Positions 33,687-42,493 of a stretch of 64,000 bases of DNA are shown in pieces. How positions within the stretch are numbered: position 1 is the stretch's first letter; the number at the start of each line of letters is the position of its first letter. The translations under genes were made by a program, and so were the position numbers. The DNA comes from Tritonibacter multivorans. Lineage in GTDB: Bacteria > Pseudomonadota > Alphaproteobacteria > Rhodobacterales > Rhodobacteraceae. The stretch spans positions 1 to 64,000 of the forward strand of contig NZ_CYSD01000031.1 in assembly GCF_001458415.1 (NCBI RefSeq), in the 5' to 3' direction. The notes beneath the pieces were generated by a model. That model was not told the DNA's origin, searched no databases, and saw only the letters and a list, made by a program, of their open reading frames with translations.

Positions 33687-34139
33687 TTAGGCGGCAACGT
33701 CTTCGCTGAAGGTCGCCGCAAAGGATTTGAAAAACTTAGCGGCCAGTTTTTTGGCAGTGCTTTGGATCAGCCGGCTCCCCAGTTGCGCCAGCTTGCCGCC
33801 GATTTCGGCTTTGGCCGCGTAGCGCAAAATGGTGGTGTCCCCCTCTGGTGTCAGGGTCACCTCTGCGCCGCCTTTGGCGTGACCTGCCGTGCCCCCATTG
33901 CCCTGTCCGGTCAGCGAAAACGCCTCGGGTGCGCCGCTGGTGTCCAGCACAACATCACCGCCAAAGCGGGCTTTGACCGGTCCGACTTTCAAAACAACTT
34001 TGGCCTCCAGCTCTGTATCGCTGTGCTTGATCAACTCTTCACAGCCGGGGATACATTTCTGAAGCACCTCCGGGTCATTCAACGCGGCATAGACGCGGTC
34101 GAGCGGGGCTTCGATGACAATTTCGTCCGAGAGTTCCAT
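33687..34139 (-). CDS. coxG: CoxG, SRPBCC-fold CO dehydrogenase accessory protein
   Basis: A 150-residue CoxG-family protein with the START/SRPBCC-like fold: IVIEAPLDRVYAALNDPEVL and QKCIPGCEEL near the N-terminus and VGPVKARFGGDVVLD in the middle. CoxG has been linked to membrane association of CO dehydrogenase and delivery of quinone. It is the last gene of the cox operon. ATG 34139 has AGAGGA about 7 nt upstream; the in-frame start at 34157 lacks support. Confidence 0.9.
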   Translation of the reverse strand: MELSDEIVIEAPLDRVYAALNDPEVLQKCIPGCEELIKHSDTELEAKVVLKVGPVKARFGGDVVLDTSGAPEAFSLTGQGNGGTAGHAKGGAEVTLTPEGDTTILRYAAKAEIGGKLAQLGSRLIQSTAKKLAAKFFKSFAATFSEDVAA

Positions 34140-34150
34140 GCTTAATCCTC

Positions 34151-34252
34151 TTAGCAACAGGGAAATTTGATTGTGGCGAGCAGCTCAGCCTGATCAGGTT
34201 TCAGCGCAATCTTGTCCCGCAGACGACGGAGCAGTGTATGAAGATGTGGCAT
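34151..34252 (-). CDS. 33-residue ORF ending in Cys-Cys between coxF and coxG
   Basis: On the minus strand ATG 34252-34250 opens a 33-codon frame stopping at TAA 34153-34151. AAGGA lies 7 nt upstream. It begins 20 nt after the coxF stop and ends 11 nt before the coxG start, so it fills the gap like an ordinary operon gene. The peptide starts MPHLHTLLRRLRDK, is amphipathic and basic, and ends TIKFPCC. It has two His residues near the N-terminus and two terminal Cys residues, and no signal peptide. Its codon use resembles that of the neighbours. Cys/His placement would permit metal or thiol chemistry, and CO dehydrogenase needs Cu and sulfur inserted, but this is inference. Confidence 0.6.
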   Translation of the reverse strand: MPHLHTLLRRLRDKIALKPDQAELLATIKFPCC

Positions 34253-34272
34253 GTGGCGTCCTTCCGATACGG

Positions 34273-35064
34273 CTATGTCTGTTCTGCGGGTGTCTGCTGG
34301 TCCGGGCGGCGGCGATGGCGCACAAGCTCGGCCAGTATGGACAGCGCGATTTCTTCCGGGGTGATTGCGCCAAGATCAAGCCCAGCCGGGGCTTTCACGC
34401 GTGCGATCACCTGTGCGGGCACACCATCCGCTGCAAGCTTGTCCGCAAGGGCCGCGAATTTTCGCGCGCTGCCGACAAAGGCGACATAGCTTGGGTCACC
34501 TGCAAGCACGGCCTTCAGCGCATCCAGATCACCTTGGCCCTGTGTTGCGATGACACAGGCCGGTTGCGCCTGAACTGTTGGGGTGCCCTGTGCCTTGGCC
34601 GTGACTTTCCAGTGAAAGGACGGGGCCAGGGCCGCCAAAGCCTGCGCAACCGGAGAGGCCCCCAGAATGACCAATTCCGGCATCGGCAGGCAGGGTTCTA
34701 TAAAGATGTCGACCGTCCCACGTGAAGGGCATCCATTGCGCACAAACTTTTTACCTTCGACTTCTTCGCCGGGGCTGACACCCAATTGGGTCAGCAATTC
34801 TTCCGGCGCTACAGAAATCAACTGAGGCACGCCGGATTGGATTGCGTCCAATGCTGCGCGTTTGACCGCACCCCGTGTACAGCCACCACCCAGCCACCCA
34901 TGCAGAATTGCGCCATCCGCCCCAAGCAGTGCTTTGGCGCCGGGTTTGGCTGACGTGGCCCCGGCCGTGCGCACAATGGTTGCAAATGCAAAGGGTTCCT
35001 GGCGGTTGCGCAGTTCTTGCGCCGCATCGGCGAGGTCAACATCAAGGACTTCGGCAGGGGTCAT
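34273..35064 (-). CDS. coxF: CoxF, XdhC-family CO dehydrogenase maturation factor
   Basis: A 263-residue XdhC/CoxF-type protein. The XdhC_CoxI N-terminal domain shows PFAFATIVRTAGATSAKPGA and GWLGGGCTRGAVKRAALDA. A second domain with ELVILGASPVAQALAALAPS resembles the Rossmann part of XdhC. In Oligotropha, CoxF is needed to finish the CuSMoO2 active site. It overlaps coxE by ATGA. Confidence 0.9.
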   Translation of the reverse strand: MTPAEVLDVDLADAAQELRNRQEPFAFATIVRTAGATSAKPGAKALLGADGAILHGWLGGGCTRGAVKRAALDAIQSGVPQLISVAPEELLTQLGVSPGEEVEGKKFVRNGCPSRGTVDIFIEPCLPMPELVILGASPVAQALAALAPSFHWKVTAKAQGTPTVQAQPACVIATQGQGDLDALKAVLAGDPSYVAFVGSARKFAALADKLAADGVPAQVIARVKAPAGLDLGAITPEEIALSILAELVRHRRRPDQQTPAEQT

Positions 35065-36242
35065 AGGGCAACAAGCTCCGGTTCCAGATCGGCAAGATCG
35101 GCCAATGTGTTTGCGGGCCGAAACAGATCGAGGTGCGGCAGTGCAGCCGCCATGCCACCGGCGATCGGGGCGTAATCGCGCCAGCCTTTCAACGGGTTGA
35201 GCCAGATGATTTTGCAGCCCCGTTTCTTCAGCGTGGCAAGGGCGGCGTCCATCTCTGCGGGTGGGCAGCTGTCATAGCCATCCGACAGGATCAGCACCAC
35301 GCTGCGCCCATCGACAAAGCGTTTGGCATAGGTATCGGCAAACCGCTGCAGTGAAACTGCGATTTTGGAGCCTCCACCAAACCCGTCGGCCATCAATGAC
35401 ATGCGGCCTATGGCGCGCAGTGTGTCCTTGTCGCGCAGGGCTTCGGTGATGCGGACAAGACGGGTGTGAAACAGATACGCATCGGCGTCTTTGTCGGCCC
35501 GCATGAGCCCCGCGAGAAACGCCAGAAACACCCGTGAATAAAGACTCATGGAGCCGGACACATCACAAAGCGCCACAATCTTGCGGCTGCGTTCAGGACG
35601 CTTTTTGCGCAACAGCCGCAGGGGTTCGCCCCCGGTTGCAAGGCTGCGTCGGATCGTCTTACGAAAGTGCAGGCGATCCCCTTTGCGGGCAGCAATGCGA
35701 CGGCGGGAGCGGCGATCACGCAGCGCTGCGCCGATTTGACGGGCGACTTTTTCAGCCTCTGCAACCTCTTCGGGGCGGACCAGATCGCGCAGGTCCTTGC
35801 GCGACAGGTTGCGCTGCTGGGTGGCGATCAGTTTGCCGGTGCCGTCGCTGTCTGCGTCATTGTCTCCGTCCTCCGGGGCGGTGGCCTGACCTGCGGCGGT
35901 GGTGTCAGCCCCTTTTCCATCCCGGCTTGACTGCACACTGTCATGCAGCGCGCTTTGGTTGTTGGCGATCACTTTCTGTTTGACCCGCCCTGCATCCAGC
36001 CAAAAGCTGTCAAACAGATCGTCAAACCGCTTGGCTTCGTCCCTGCAGCCGGTGCACACGGCTTTCAAGGCGCGTCGGCAGTCTTCGGCCTGCACGGCTT
36101 TGATCTCGGCAATTGCGGAGAGCGCCAGCTCAGCCTCAGAAACCCCAAGTCGCAAGCCGTTTTGCCGCAAATGCGCAAGGAAACCGGCGATCCGCGCAGC
36201 AGGGCCCGGGTCGCGGGCGGCAAAGCGGGTCACGCGGCTCAT
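35061..36242 (-). CDS. coxE: CoxE, VWA-domain CO dehydrogenase maturation protein
   Basis: A 393-residue protein. The C-terminal von Willebrand A domain (about 210-380) has an intact MIDAS motif CDVSGSMSLYSRVF (DxSxS) and SDGYDSCPPAEMD. The N-terminal half is helical, with an acidic linker near 110-135. CoxE works with the AAA+ ATPase CoxD in inserting copper into the CO dehydrogenase cluster. It overlaps coxD and coxF by 4 nt each, a tightly coupled set. Confidence 0.92.
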   Translation of the reverse strand: MSRVTRFAARDPGPAARIAGFLAHLRQNGLRLGVSEAELALSAIAEIKAVQAEDCRRALKAVCTGCRDEAKRFDDLFDSFWLDAGRVKQKVIANNQSALHDSVQSSRDGKGADTTAAGQATAPEDGDNDADSDGTGKLIATQQRNLSRKDLRDLVRPEEVAEAEKVARQIGAALRDRRSRRRIAARKGDRLHFRKTIRRSLATGGEPLRLLRKKRPERSRKIVALCDVSGSMSLYSRVFLAFLAGLMRADKDADAYLFHTRLVRITEALRDKDTLRAIGRMSLMADGFGGGSKIAVSLQRFADTYAKRFVDGRSVVLILSDGYDSCPPAEMDAALATLKKRGCKIIWLNPLKGWRDYAPIAGGMAAALPHLDLFRPANTLADLADLEPELVAL

Positions 36243-37144
36243 GCGACTTTCCCTGCAAGACGCGCTGTGACTTCTGGGGTGATCTGGGCCTGATCGCTCT
36301 GGGTTTTCAACAGGGTTGTCAGGGTCGACTGCAACACCGCTGGCGAAGTTGTCAGATCCGCAATACCAAGCCCCATAAGGGCCGCAGCGAAATCCAGCAT
36401 TTCAGCAATGCCGGGGGTCTTTTCCAGATCTTCGCGGCGCAGGGTTTGCACAAAGCCGATGATTTGTTCCGCCAATCGGGCTTCGACCTCGGGGCATCGC
36501 GCCTTCAGAATTGCGAGCTCTGTTCCGTGATCCGGGTATTCCACATAGGTATAAAGGCAGCGCCGCCGCAGCGCATCGGAGAGATCGCGGGTGCCGTTGG
36601 ACGTCAGGATCACAATCGGTCGGCTGGTGGCGGTGATGGTCCCCAGTTCCGGGATCGAGACCTGAAATTCCGAGAGAACCTCCAGCAGGTAGGCCTCGAA
36701 TTCTTCGTCGGCGCGGTCGATTTCGTCGATCAGCAGAACTGGCGCCTGATCCTGCGTGATTGCAGCGAGCAGGGGGCGTTCCAGAAGGAAATCGCGTGAG
36801 AATAACCGGTCTTCAATCTCTTTGCCGGTTACGCCATCCTCTGCCGCAGCGCGAATGGTCAAAAGTTGACGTTGATAGTTCCACTCATAGATCGCTTGCG
36901 CGGCATCCAAACCCTCGTAGCACTGAAGCCGGATGAGTTGTGTGTCTAGCGCACCGGACAAGGCCCGCGCCACTTCGGTTTTGCCAACACCAGCCGCCCC
37001 TTCCAGCAACAGGGGACGCCCCAGCGACAACGCAAGTTGAAGGGCCACAGACAGATCGTCGGATGCAACATATCCATCGCGCCGCAGCACGGTTTGAAGA
37101 TCATTCCAGTTCATCAGCAGATGCGCAGGGCGGCCAATGGACAC
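36239..37144 (-). CDS. coxD: CoxD, MoxR-type AAA+ ATPase for CO dehydrogenase maturation
   Basis: A 301-residue MoxR-family ATPase with Walker A LLLEGAAGVGKTEVA, Walker B VLLIDEIDRADEEFE, sensor 1 PIVILTSNGTRDLSDALRRR and the MoxR sensor 2 region. CoxD is required for sulfuration of the Mo site in Oligotropha, acting with the VWA protein CoxE. The start is GTG 37144 with AAGGA upstream; ATG 37114 has no ribosome site. Confidence 0.93.
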   Translation of the reverse strand: MSIGRPAHLLMNWNDLQTVLRRDGYVASDDLSVALQLALSLGRPLLLEGAAGVGKTEVARALSGALDTQLIRLQCYEGLDAAQAIYEWNYQRQLLTIRAAAEDGVTGKEIEDRLFSRDFLLERPLLAAITQDQAPVLLIDEIDRADEEFEAYLLEVLSEFQVSIPELGTITATSRPIVILTSNGTRDLSDALRRRCLYTYVEYPDHGTELAILKARCPEVEARLAEQIIGFVQTLRREDLEKTPGIAEMLDFAAALMGLGIADLTTSPAVLQSTLTTLLKTQSDQAQITPEVTARLAGKVA

Positions 37145-37159: not shown

Positions 37160-39583
37160 TTAGTCGTGCAAGCCAAGCGCGTTTGCGGTTCTCCAAATGC
37201 GCCAGTGATCATGCGGCATATTGGTATGCCGGTTGCCAAAGGCGCGGAACGCGTCCTGTACCGCGTTGGAAAAACAGGGCACACCGCCGACATGCGGGCT
37301 TTCGCCGACCCCTTTGGCCCCGATCGGGTGATGCGGCGAGGGGGTCACGGTATAGTCGGTTTCGTAATTCGGGACCTCCCAAGCGGTGGGCAGGAAGAAA
37401 TCCATCAGCGTGCCCGTCTTCACATTGCCCATGTCGTCATAGGCGATCTCCTGTCCCAGTGCGACAGCGAGCGCTTCGGTCAAACCGCCATGCACCTGGC
37501 CTTCAATGATCATCGGGTTGATCCGCGTGCCGCAGTCATCCAGCGCGTAGAAGCGGCGGATGTCCGGCACGCCGGTATCCACATCAATATCCATCACGCA
37601 GACATAGGCGCCAAACGGGTAGGTCATATTGGGCGGGTCATAGTAGCTGACCGCCTCAAGCCCCGGTTCGATCCCCGGAATGGCCTGATTATAGGCAGCA
37701 AAGGCGATGTCCTTCATCGTTTTGAACTTTTCAGGCGCGCCTTTGACCACGAAACGATCCACGTCGAATTCGACGTCATCATCGTGCACCTCGAGCAGAT
37801 AGGCCGCGATCATCTGCGCCTTGGCGCGGATCTTGCGACCGGCCATGGCCGTTGCCGCGCCCGCCACAGGCGTTGACCGCGACCCGTAGGTACCAAGCCC
37901 ATAAGGCGCGGTGTCGGTGTCGCCTTCCTCTATCGTGATGCTGTCGGCGGGCAAGCCAATTTCCGATGCGAGGATCTGCGCGAAGGTCGTGGCGTGGCCC
38001 TGACCTTGGGAAATCGTCCCCAGCCGCGCAATCGCAGACCCTGTGGGGTGAATGCGGATTTCACAGCTGTCAAACATGCCCAGCCCCAGAATATCGCAGT
38101 TCTTCACCGGGCCAGCGCCCACAATTTCGGTAAAGAAGCTAAGGCCGATGCCCATCAGCTTGCGGGTTTTGCCGGCCTTGAAATCCTCGACCCGCCGGGC
38201 CTGTTCGGCGCGCAAGCCCTCATAGTCCACGGTTTTCAGCGCCTTATCCCAAGCGGTGTGATAGTCGCCACTGTCATATTCCCAGCCCAAGGCGGCGGTG
38301 TAGGGGAACTGTTCCTTCTTGATAAAGTTGATCCGCCGCAGCTCTGCCGCGTCCATGTTCAGCTCAATCGCCAGGACTTCGATCATCCGTTCGATGAAAT
38401 AGACCGCTTCGGTCACACGGAAGGAACAGCGATAGCTGACCCCACCAGGCGCCTTGTTGGTATAGACCCCATCGACCTCAAGAAACGCGGTCGGGATGTC
38501 ATAAGAGCCGGTGCAGATGTTCATGAAACCAGCGGGAAACTTTGTTGGGTCCGCGCAGGCGTCAAAACCGCCGTGGTCTGCGGTTACGTGACAGTGCAGA
38601 CCGGTGATCTTGCCCTCTTTCGTGGCGCTGATCCGTCCCTTCATCCAGTAGTCGCGGGCAAAGGCGGTGGTCATCAGATTGTCCATCCGGTCTTCGATCC
38701 ATTTGACCGGCTTGGCCGTCACGATGGAAGCTACGACCGAACACACATAGCCCGGATAAGCGCCAACCTTATTGCCAAAGCCGCCTCCAATGTCCGGCGA
38801 GATCACGCGGATATTGTGTTCCTCAATTCCTGAAATCAGGCTGACGACGGTGCGGATCGCATGGGGCGCTTGGAACGTCCCCCAAAGCGTCAGCTTGCCA
38901 TTGACCTTATCCATCGACGCCACGCAGCCGCAGGTTTCAAGCGGGCAGGGGTGGGTGCGGTGGTAGTACATGGTCTCTTCCGCGACCACATCGGCATTGG
39001 CGATCACCTCTTCGGTGGGATCTTTGTCGCCCGCTTCCCAGGTGAAGATGTGGTTGTGGTGTTTGCGCGGGCCATGGGCACCATCGACAGGTTTGCCGTC
39101 CTGAACCGTGTCTTCGCGCAGAACCACATCGGTTTTCAGCGCCTCGAACGGGTCAACGATAACTGGCAGCTCTTCGTATTCGACCACAACGGCCTCAATC
39201 CCGTCGGCGGCGGCATAGCGGTCTTCGGCCACCACAAAGGCCACTTCTTGCCCCTGAAACAGCACCTTGCCATCGGCCAGAACCATCTGTTTGTCGCCCG
39301 CAAGGGTCGGCATCCAATGCAAGCCAAGGGGCTCCAGATCCGCCGCCGTCAGCACCGCCAGAACACCGGGGACTTCCATCGCGGCAGAGGCGTCGATGTT
39401 CTTGATCCGGGCGTGCGCATAGGGCGAGCGTACAAAGTCGCCAAACAGCATCCCGTCCAGTTTGATGTCATCGACATAGTTGCCCTTGCCTTGAGTGAAA
39501 CGGGCGTCCTCGACCCGCTTGCGCGAGCAGCCCATGCCTTTGAGGTTGGCGACCCGTTCGTCGCGTGTGACGTCATCCTTCAT
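37160..39583 (-). CDS. coxL: CO dehydrogenase large subunit, form I
   Basis: An 807-residue molybdopterin subunit that oxidises CO to CO2. The form I active-site loop reads [14 protein letters not shown] with Cys386, the residue that binds Cu in the CuSMoO2 cluster; form II enzymes have AYRGAGR there. [13 protein letters not shown] (near 755-768) holds the conserved active-site Glu. Cofactor-binding stretches [14 protein letters not shown] and [20 protein letters not shown] are present. Length matches known CoxL. It overlaps coxS by ATGA. All maturation genes D, E, F and G follow on the same strand. Confidence 0.97.
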
Positions 39584-40074
39584 TCTGCCGCCTCCTTGGC
39601 TGCATTCATCTCAGCGGCTGCTGCCTGAATGGATTTCACAATGTTCTGATACCCGGTGCAGCGGCAGATATTGCCGGCCATGCCAAAGCGGATCTCTTCT
39701 TCGGTTGGGTTTGGGTTCTCTTCGAGCAGTTTGGTCGCCCGCGTAATCATCCCCGGCGTGCAGTATCCACACTGAAGCCCGTGGTGTTCCTTGAACGCCT
39801 CTTGCAATGGATGCAGCGCATCCGGCGTACCGATCCCTTCGATTGTGGTGATCTCTGCGCCATCCGCCTGGGCCGCAAACATGGTGCAGGATTTGACCGA
39901 TTTGCCATTGATCGTCACCGTGCAGGCGCCGCAATGGGATGTTTCGCAGCCGATGTGGGGACCGGTGATATTCAGCCGCTCGCGCAGGGTGTAGATCAGC
40001 AGCTCACGCGGTTCGGCCAGGAACTCTTCGTCTTTGCCGTTCACGTTAAGTTTGATGTGCATCTTTTTCGACAT
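39580..40074 (-). CDS. coxS: CO dehydrogenase iron-sulfur subunit
   Basis: A 164-residue subunit with two [2Fe-2S] clusters. The plant-type ferredoxin cluster uses [13 protein letters not shown] plus the Cys in VKSCTMFA. The second, helical cluster uses [10 protein letters not shown] and NICRCTGY. It carries electrons from the Mo site in CoxL to the FAD in CoxM. The extra Cys-free C-terminal tail ([13 protein letters not shown]) is unremarkable. Confidence 0.97.
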
Positions 40075-40089: not shown

Positions 40090-40944
40090 TTAAGCGCGTG
40101 ACCAGGCGCGTTCGATTGCGCGGCGCAGGATCACACCTGCCACATGTTTCTTGAACGCGACGGGGCCGCGGTTGTCCTCGGACGGGTCAATGTCGCCAAG
40201 CATGGCTGTGACGGCGGCTTTCACGGCGGCATCGTCCAGTGCGGTTCCCAACAGCGCCGCACAGGCATCTTCCGAGAACACTGGCGTATCGCTGAGATTG
40301 GTCATCGCAATAGACGCCGCCTTGCAAACGCCGTCCTCTTTGACGATCTGCACCGCTGCGGCCGCTGTGGCATAGTCACCGATTTTCCGCTTTTGTTTTT
40401 CATAAGCATAGCCACCGTCGGGGACCGGAAGCGTGACTGCTGTCAGAACCTCTTCGTCTTCGCGGGCTGTCATATAGGCCGCCTCGTAAAACGCGCGGGC
40501 CGGCACGCTGCGTTCGCCTTCGGGGCCGATCAGGTGAAAGGTCGCGTTCACGCACTGCATCAATCCCGGCATGTCATTGCCCGGATCGCCATTGGCGACA
40601 TTGCCGCCGATGGTGCCCATATAGCGCACCTGCGGGTCGGCGATCTGAAGCGCTGCTTCGCGTAGGATCGGGGCGACGGCTGCCAGCCCTTCGTGGTCGA
40701 TGATCTCGGCTTGGGTGACCATAGCGCCAAGGCGAATTTGGCCGTTGCTGATGTCGATGCCGTGCAGGCCGTCGACGTCTTGCAGGTCAATCAGATGGGG
40801 CACTTCTGCCATGCGCAGTTTCATCATGGGGATCAGGCTGTGACCCCCTGCCATGACGCGCGCATCGTCTCCATGTTCTTCCAAAATGGACAGGACCCCG
40901 GCAAGATCCTTGGGTCGATAATACTCAAATGCCGCTGGAATCAT
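40090..40944 (-). CDS. coxM: CO dehydrogenase FAD subunit
   Basis: A 284-residue FAD-binding subunit. The two FAD pyrophosphate motifs are AGGHSLIPMMKLR (about 32-44) and TIGGNVANGDPGNDMPGLM (about 111-129). It hands electrons to the quinone pool. GGGAGGAG lies just before ATG 40944, so this gene should be translated strongly. A 112-nt gap separates it from coxC, so the structural genes may have their own promoter. Confidence 0.96.
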   Translation of the reverse strand: MIPAAFEYYRPKDLAGVLSILEEHGDDARVMAGGHSLIPMMKLRMAEVPHLIDLQDVDGLHGIDISNGQIRLGAMVTQAEIIDHEGLAAVAPILREAALQIADPQVRYMGTIGGNVANGDPGNDMPGLMQCVNATFHLIGPEGERSVPARAFYEAAYMTAREDEEVLTAVTLPVPDGGYAYEKQKRKIGDYATAAAAVQIVKEDGVCKAASIAMTNLSDTPVFSEDACAALLGTALDDAAVKAAVTAMLGDIDPSEDNRGPVAFKKHVAGVILRRAIERAWSRA

Positions 40945-41056: not shown

Positions 41057-42193
41057 TCATCCCGCACGAGTTGCGCCCTCCTGCGCAACCAGCGCCCCTT
41101 GGACGATCTTGAGCTTGGATCGACTCACAGGGGCAGGCGGCACCGCGTCCTGTCCAAAGACACACCGGCCCTTGTCCTTGGCCCGTTCAAACCGCACCAC
41201 ATGAGATGGGTTGACCAGATAACTGCGGTGCGTTTGCAGGAACCCTTCGGGCATCAGCCGTTTGAAAGCTTCGGTCACAGGCCAGGCGCAGAACAGTCTT
41301 TCCTGTTCTGTGTAGACCTGCGTGTAATGGCCATCGGCGCGGACAAACATCACATCAGACGGCGAAACAAAGACCTTCCCGCCGTCCCGTTCGCAAGGAA
41401 TTTGGCACAGCGGGCGATGGGCGGCGGGGTCTTCTGGCGCGGCGGGCGTTAGGGGCGGGGTATCATTGGCCTGGGCACTGTCGCCCACCAGATAGGTGAC
41501 GCTGACCCAGAGGCAGGTGCCGAAGATAATGAAACTGAAAAAGATCACACCAAGCGCAAGCGTTTCGTTGTTCATTCTTGGGCCGAATTCAGAGGCGCCT
41601 TCCAAGGTGACAAACCGTGTGCCCGCCATGGCAAGGAAATGAACAGAACACACCGCCGCCGCGAAACACAGCGTGCCCAGAAAAATATTCCGGTTTGTCC
41701 GCCGCCCATAGGCCACCCAGATCGCCAAGATACACAAGCCAATGGCCAGTACCGACGACACCAGCACGCCAAGCGGTGTGTAGACCGCGCGGCAAAGCTC
41801 CAGCCCGGCCATGCCGATATAGTGCATGACCAGAATGCCCACGCCCAGAATACTGCCAGCCAGTGTCAGCACGGCAGGTGTTCTGTGACGAAAATGCAGA
41901 AGGATCAGTGCGGCGCCGACAATCAAAATCGCCGTCAGTGCCGAAATGAGCGTAATGGCCGCATCATAGTAGAACAGGATTGGCAGCTGCACGCCAAGCA
42001 TGCCGATAAAATGCATCGCCCAAATGCCGCCGCCAAGCGCCACCGAAGACAGGGCAATGGACAGTTTTTTGTCAAAGACCGATTTTGCCGACAAGTCGCG
42101 GGTCAGCGACAAGCCGGTAAAACCGGACACAACAGCGACAAGACACGCCATCGCGACCACGGTCGCGTCGTGTGAAAACGTTAGCTCCTCCAT
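41057..42193 (-). CDS. coxC: CoxC, MHYT-LytTR membrane sensor-regulator
   Basis: A 378-residue protein. Six or seven membrane helices contain three MHYT-type repeats: WAMHFIGMLGVQLP, LVMHYIGMAGLELC and CSVHFLAMAGTRFV, thought to bind a metal or gas. The C-terminal LytTR DNA-binding domain (about 270-365) shows FVSPSDVMFVRADGHYTQVY and FLQTHRSYLVNPSHVVRFER. This architecture and the position upstream of coxM match CoxC/CoxH of Oligotropha. It probably senses CO or O2 and activates cox genes. ATG 42193 fits the family N-terminus; a TTG at 42268 would add 25 residues. Confidence 0.9.
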   Translation of the reverse strand: MEELTFSHDATVVAMACLVAVVSGFTGLSLTRDLSAKSVFDKKLSIALSSVALGGGIWAMHFIGMLGVQLPILFYYDAAITLISALTAILIVGAALILLHFRHRTPAVLTLAGSILGVGILVMHYIGMAGLELCRAVYTPLGVLVSSVLAIGLCILAIWVAYGRRTNRNIFLGTLCFAAAVCSVHFLAMAGTRFVTLEGASEFGPRMNNETLALGVIFFSFIIFGTCLWVSVTYLVGDSAQANDTPPLTPAAPEDPAAHRPLCQIPCERDGGKVFVSPSDVMFVRADGHYTQVYTEQERLFCAWPVTEAFKRLMPEGFLQTHRSYLVNPSHVVRFERAKDKGRCVFGQDAVPPAPVSRSKLKIVQGALVAQEGATRAG

Positions 42194-42493
42194 GCCGCTA
42201 CGATGGCGAAGCTTTGGTTTTATTGCAAACCACAGTTGCAGGAAATCGTTAGAAATTGTGGTCGACAAATACCCCTTTGGGATAACGGGCCCAAGGTCCG
42301 GATGGCTTCCGCAAGGGCAATGATGGTGGATCTATAGGCAAGCGGCAGGGGAATTTTCGGAATTTAGTCATTTATTCTTGACAAAAAGACTAAGATTCGC
42401 GATTTCAACTTTCGAAAACGCCGCGCCCGCCGATTGCTAGCCGTCACAGTCAAGCTTGTTTGATTGTGTCTATGGCATGTGATCAGGGACGAC
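42194..42493. promoter_or_regulatory. Divergent promoter region between coxC and the haem receptor gene
   Basis: The 300 nt hold no gene. The part near 42355-42425 is A/T-rich. TTAGTC (42364-42369) and GACTAA (42388-42393) form a 6-bp inverted repeat with an 18-nt spacer containing TTGACA, a plausible -35 box of the receptor gene. An iron-responsive operator is expected, but I could not match a known alphaproteobacterial consensus with confidence. Confidence 0.4.

Follow-up and report, generated by a model that had tools for sequence, protein, structure and literature searches.

A conserved Cys-Cys peptide gene following coxF, and its possible part in copper delivery to form I CO dehydrogenase

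COX17 binds one Cu(I) between its adjacent residues Cys22 and Cys23, as described in the available text of PMC7582641, and the C-terminal cysteine pair of MerA delivers Hg(II) to the active site, according to the accessible part of PMC4500099. For CO dehydrogenase, the available sections of PMC4240915 report that Oligotropha coxE and coxF mutants make an enzyme that holds Mo and sulfur and lacks copper, that the suspected Cu site of CoxF is the motif M107CPSHGTM, and that thiols can reach the active site through the channel of the enzyme. A YHS domain is the probable copper sensor of a mycobacterial cyclase in the accessible part of PMC4626032. The peptide considered here is not named in the available portions of PMC4240915 or PMC13240472. 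A literature text search for KFPCC returned no related paper by title, and searches on a coxF/coxG small protein, a coxL small ORF and a coxF metallochaperone found no such peptide in titles or abstracts, with most subscription journals lying outside the scope of these searches.

The window, a stretch of 64,000 nucleotides from Tritonibacter multivorans, carries on its minus strand a cox operon in the order coxM-S-L-D-E-F, a 33-codon frame and coxG. Pfam models identify coxM (40090..40944), coxS (39580..40074), the AAA ATPase gene coxD (36239..37144, also matched by NCBIfam), the VWA protein gene coxE (35061..36242), the XdhC family gene coxF (34273..35064; 263 amino acids, no YHS match) and coxG (33687..34139; 150 amino acids, lacking the long C-terminal tail of Afipia CoxG). 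The large subunit gene coxL (37160..39583) is of form I, scoring 1397 bits with TIGR02416 against a cut-off of 991. Upstream of coxM on the same strand, a frame at 41057-42268 has repeated membrane segments and an end that we take to be LytTR-like; its position makes it a candidate regulator for CO, comparable to the MHYT genes ahead of other cox clusters.

Direct reading of the DNA bears out the layout given in the preliminary description. The peptide gene (34151..34252, minus strand, 33 codons plus stop) encodes MPHLHTLLRRLRDKIALKPDQAELLATIKFPCC, with the stop codon at 34153-34151. An AAGGA ribosome-binding site (34259..34263) stands 6 nt 5′ of the ATG, the frame is separated by 20 nt from the coxF stop, which ends at 34273, and 11 nt lie between its own stop and the coxG ATG at 34139. 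The product ends in KFPCC (codons at 34154..34168) and has His at residues 3 and 5. These two His had been pointed out together with the FPCC end, but only the Cys-Cys is kept among homologues; of the 54 peptides whose start could be assigned, just 20 contain any His at all, and we rejected the His pair as a conserved feature.

The frame is a real protein-coding gene under selection and not a chance frame. Translating the coxF-coxG gap in relatives gave the conserved Cys-Cys ORF with a synonymous bias that had been anticipated: over the last five codons, 41 ungapped homologue rows give pS 0.913 and pN 0.023, a pN/pS of 0.025. The eight codons before these have a pN/pS of 0.41 in the same rows and the N-terminal part 0.65 (20 rows). 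A 13-codon stretch has a pN/pS of 0.231 in frame, versus 1.31 and 1.56 when the same 41 rows are read in the two shifted frames. Among the 59 distinct frames in the selection set, from which L179, L182 and one L138 frame had been removed as chance CC ends, all three stop codons are used (TAA 21, TAG 10, TGA 28), and TGT/TGC and TTT/TTC interchange while the amino acids are kept. A Shine-Dalgarno-like run four or more bases long precedes 43 of the 54 frames with an assigned start, a figure biased upward because starts were chosen partly by that run.

The encoded peptides begin with a basic part that varies, continue with a better conserved middle (TPEQA..LA) and end in a (K/R)FPCC tail that hardly changes; 52 of the 54 with an assigned start carry a net positive charge (mean +4.4). 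Adjacent cysteines, which are conserved soft-metal ligands, are present in all 30 rows of the homologue alignment, although the gathering search favors Cys-Cys. No Pfam or NCBIfam model, PF04945 (YHS) included, matched the peptide at E up to 1. An AlphaFold model places helices at residues 2-15 and 19-29, followed by a free tail, and is weak (pLDDT 69, pTM 0.27).

We surveyed 295 genomes of the window's family, calling coxL by TIGR02416 at E up to 1e-280. A form I coxL match is present in 72 of them, 70 over the curated cut-off, and 66 of the 72 are readable past coxF (the others are G405, G414, G490, G494, G630 and G645, the last five with coxL at or near a contig end). After coxF, a short frame whose last two codons before the stop are Cys-Cys, preceded by Pro or Ser, is present in 47 of the 66 readable clusters. 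The end is [KR]FPCC in 38; the other nine are QFPCC, TFSCC, KLPCC (two), KPPCC and P[KR]CC (four). The frame keeps its position where a nucleotidyltransferase gene is inserted after coxF, and it ends 11 to 24 nt before coxG in the 44 family clusters in which both could be placed. Frameshifts, lost starts or a lost Cys-Cys in relatives had been named as grounds for doubt: the frame is kept in these 47, but the peptide is missing in the other 19, among them G439 with a frame ending FPRSC, and two of the 47 (G083 and G431) have no in-frame ATG, GTG or TTG, so that these genes may be broken. In one cluster with no free peptide (L070, G333), NPFPCCEEGTH stands in frame directly before the CoxG start, as if fused to CoxG.

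Searching with the peptide itself gave matches in 66 of the 295 genomes at E up to 1. The best 30 of these all end at the last residue and all adjoin coxF, and 28 of the 30 also adjoin coxG. None of the 223 family genomes without a coxL match has a peptide match at E up to 0.02; all matches at that level fall in the 72 coxL genomes, and the one in G475 is partial, sits inside a long frame away from the cluster and is probably a chance hit. The frame was also found in five plasmid records (Marivivens, Aestuarium, Pseudosulfitobacter and two Roseivivax), of which Marivivens alone has a protein entered at that place, a hypothetical one of 40 amino acids, in a gene table self-described as incomplete. 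That the gene is conserved yet can be missed by annotation, as had been proposed, is strongly supported.

Beyond the family the distribution is patchy. A second alphaproteobacterial family has form I coxL in 4 of 36 genomes searched, and in all four clusters coxF is directly followed by a basic peptide of 31-32 residues ending TTPVCC, TTPICC or VPVCC, an analogue (P[VI]CC) with no coxG nearby. In a third family coxL occurs in 16 of 101 genomes, with the peptide in one of the 15 clusters that have a readable coxF end (G1042, where it ends 8 nt before coxG). Another member of that family, G307 (L068), has a CoxF that runs on for some 80 further residues and ends RRFCCM; this is at most a hint of a peptide-CoxF fusion, because none of its family relatives read ends so. 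Another 16 alphaproteobacterial clusters in which coxF could be read, drawn from other families and from plasmids, all lack the peptide; among them is that of Afipia carboxidovorans, in which coxF and coxG overlap. Ten clusters (L062, L090, L093, L094, L098, L100, L101, L103, L104 and L118), which had no coxF by tblastn, were not read for the peptide. A DNA-pattern scan of genome contigs, run with a spacing of 21 free bases instead of 18, gave seven stretches: three (L111, L113, L116) are Rhodobacterales cox peptides, and four (L110, L112, L114, L115) look like chance, with no cox gene match and in one case no stop codon.

A CoxF tree of 113 rows, which left out L095, L102, L158 and L178, places 50 peptide rows among the 60 of one starred clade, none among the 25 of a clade that contains Afipia and is less certain (support 85) and 8 among the 21 of a third. 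The peptide label changes 16 times on this tree versus 38 times when shuffled.

The first Met of the suspected Cu motif of CoxF, MCPSHGTM, is missing from every one of the 59 CoxF that go with a peptide. Of the 48 CoxF that have neither the peptide nor a YHS domain, 23 possess it, a complementarity that stands at the level of clades and finds no support on independent branches (sign test p 1). Six of seven non-alphaproteobacterial clusters with an identified CoxF have a YHS domain (PF04945) at the CoxF C-terminus, five over Pfam's cut-off and Deinococcus at 29.1 bits versus 30.3; no YHS was found on Nonomuraea CoxF. Hosts of these six loci (L066, L088, L177, L179, L180, L183) include Burkholderiales, Thermomicrobium, Deinococcus and a haloarchaeon. 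The peptide is absent from all six clusters, and no YHS pattern occurs among the alphaproteobacterial CoxF rows. A further CoxF tail motif, RRxGQR (in 18 of the 59 rows scored as lacking the peptide and in 0 of the 58 scored as having it), is a pattern chosen post hoc and was not relied on, because G1042 was scored as peptide-less despite its peptide and a similar tail in L105 was missed.

We propose, at a probability of roughly 0.48, that the product is a handoff peptide, separate from the other cox proteins, which serves the maturation of the [CuSMoO2] site and carries Cu(I) on its tail, with persulfide on the same tail as the nearest variant. The two predicted helices would dock the peptide on CoxF, CoxE or apo-CO dehydrogenase, while the flexible tail would hold one Cu(I) between vicinal thiols and deliver it to the Mo-SH group and the active-site cysteine in CoxL. 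The peptide would supply in trans a function that, in distant lineages, may belong to the YHS domain fused to CoxF. We favor copper handoff because the coxE and coxF mutants, the YHS domain, the Met pattern, COX17, MerA and the helix model together point that way, and we infer that the cargo is Cu(I) for CoxF, sulfur being less likely. Much of this support is at the level of clades, and copper binding by the peptide is itself something we infer. Against the proposal, some form I clusters, that of Afipia (Oligotropha) among them, lack both the peptide and the YHS domain, and the function must therefore be dispensable or met otherwise there. The earlier suggestion of a carrier of Cu(I), sulfur or a thiol in maturation is compatible with the evidence and may be right. 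A bolder version, which we consider possible but less likely than not, takes the peptides of about 30 residues as one family of last-step Cu carriers whose Cys-Cys enters the channel of apo-CoxL and sets Cu(I) between Mo-S and the active-site cysteine, which stand in trans for the CoxF YHS domain, and which arose or was remodeled more than once (KFPCC, P[KR]CC, P[VI]CC).

The conserved tail would also fit a sulfur or redox carrier, in which the Cys-Cys takes a persulfide or forms a vicinal disulfide and aids Mo sulfuration or reduction of the site with CoxD, not copper insertion. In the available sections of PMC4240915 Mo sulfuration has no established sulfur source, and the Mo-S site reacts with thiols in vitro. 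The gene, however, adjoins coxF and not coxD, and both the YHS pattern and the Met pattern speak for metal; some cox clusters also contain a second XdhC-family gene, which could serve sulfuration. On balance we consider this carrier unlikely. About as unlikely, in our judgment, is that the peptide works with CoxG at the membrane, its basic amphipathic chain replacing the tail that the short CoxG lacks and bringing CO dehydrogenase to the quinone pool. CoxG of the window's type (about 150 amino acids) is tailless, whereas the CoxG proteins of Afipia and Bradyrhizobium carry a hydrophobic tail with WCC; the peptide is positively charged and its gene abuts coxG; and in the Oligotropha coxG mutant the enzyme is mostly off the membrane (PMC4240915, available sections). 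An adjacent coxG is present in 51 of 59 clusters with the peptide versus 28 of 47 readable clusters with neither peptide nor YHS (G307 counted), an association not significant by a sign test on independent branches; coxG is thus commoner beside the peptide, which leaves room for a CoxG role. Yet tailless CoxG is also found without the peptide, amphipathicity is modest (mean z 0.71), G631 and G496 keep the peptide intact with sole coxG relatives only 50% and 46% identical, and 8 of the 59 peptide clusters, including all four of the second family, are without an intact adjacent coxG. These eight weaken the proposed link between CoxG and the enzyme. The available parts of PMC4240915 give a mixed account of the coxG mutant, with enzyme complete in S and Cu in the abstract and discussion and copper-deficient enzyme of half the specific activity in another passage, and a CoxG partnership alone would therefore not exclude a copper role.

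Three individual CoxG arrangements may be recorded here. CoxG of L084, L086, L095 and L182 has a hydrophobic tail, then Cys-Cys and later an ICS or ICT motif. On the Roseivivax THAF197b plasmid (L082) the peptide is intact and coxG has an early stop, with the match confined to its first part; its upstream flank holds a Tn3 transposase, and coxM is missing from the gene list. Elsewhere in the window's genome stands another coxG on its own, also tailless (L184, G000:C21:17605-18045; 76% identical), ahead of which no such peptide frame was found.

Two Cys codons right before the stop, 11 nt ahead of coxG, could also suggest a regulatory leader whose translation or Cys-tRNA supply sets coxG expression, the peptide itself being functionless. 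We set this reading aside as highly improbable, because codons interchange, including all three stops, while amino acids are kept, and because the frame occurs without a downstream coxG. A short product with a variable start and a nearly invariant C-terminal end would likewise suit a RiPP precursor or a structural subunit peptide of CO dehydrogenase, to which we attach very little weight: no protein resembling a modifying enzyme was found among the eight scanned with Pfam and NCBIfam (the peptide and seven cox proteins), and we know of no such chain in CO dehydrogenase structures, which counts against a subunit. Prenylation of a C-terminal CC, as in Rab proteins, is eukaryotic and was set aside.

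If copper handoff is correct, a small, mostly unannotated gene with a simple motif would offer a direct handle on Cu delivery to the unique Mo-S-Cu site, in a host group that includes marine CO oxidizers. Absence of the peptide might also explain poor activity of transferred cox operons.

Set beside known systems, the peptide shares its operon, and probably its pathway, with CoxD, CoxE and CoxF. It resembles COX17 in its adjacent cysteines, for which Cu(I) binding is known in COX17 and proposed here, and the COX17 pair stands in a KPCC context; COX17, however, is a mitochondrial coiled-coil-helix protein with six cysteines, whereas the peptide has 33 residues and its Cys-Cys at the very C-terminus. 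The YHS domain fused to CoxF is likewise Cys-rich, has an F(C/T)C motif and sits at the CoxF end in form I cox operons, but the peptide is a separate gene product and is shorter than the 47-position YHS model. With MerA it has in common a flexible C-terminal Cys pair, which in MerA passes a soft metal to a buried site (PMC4500099, accessible part); there the pair is part of the enzyme itself, whereas here it is carried by a separate peptide.
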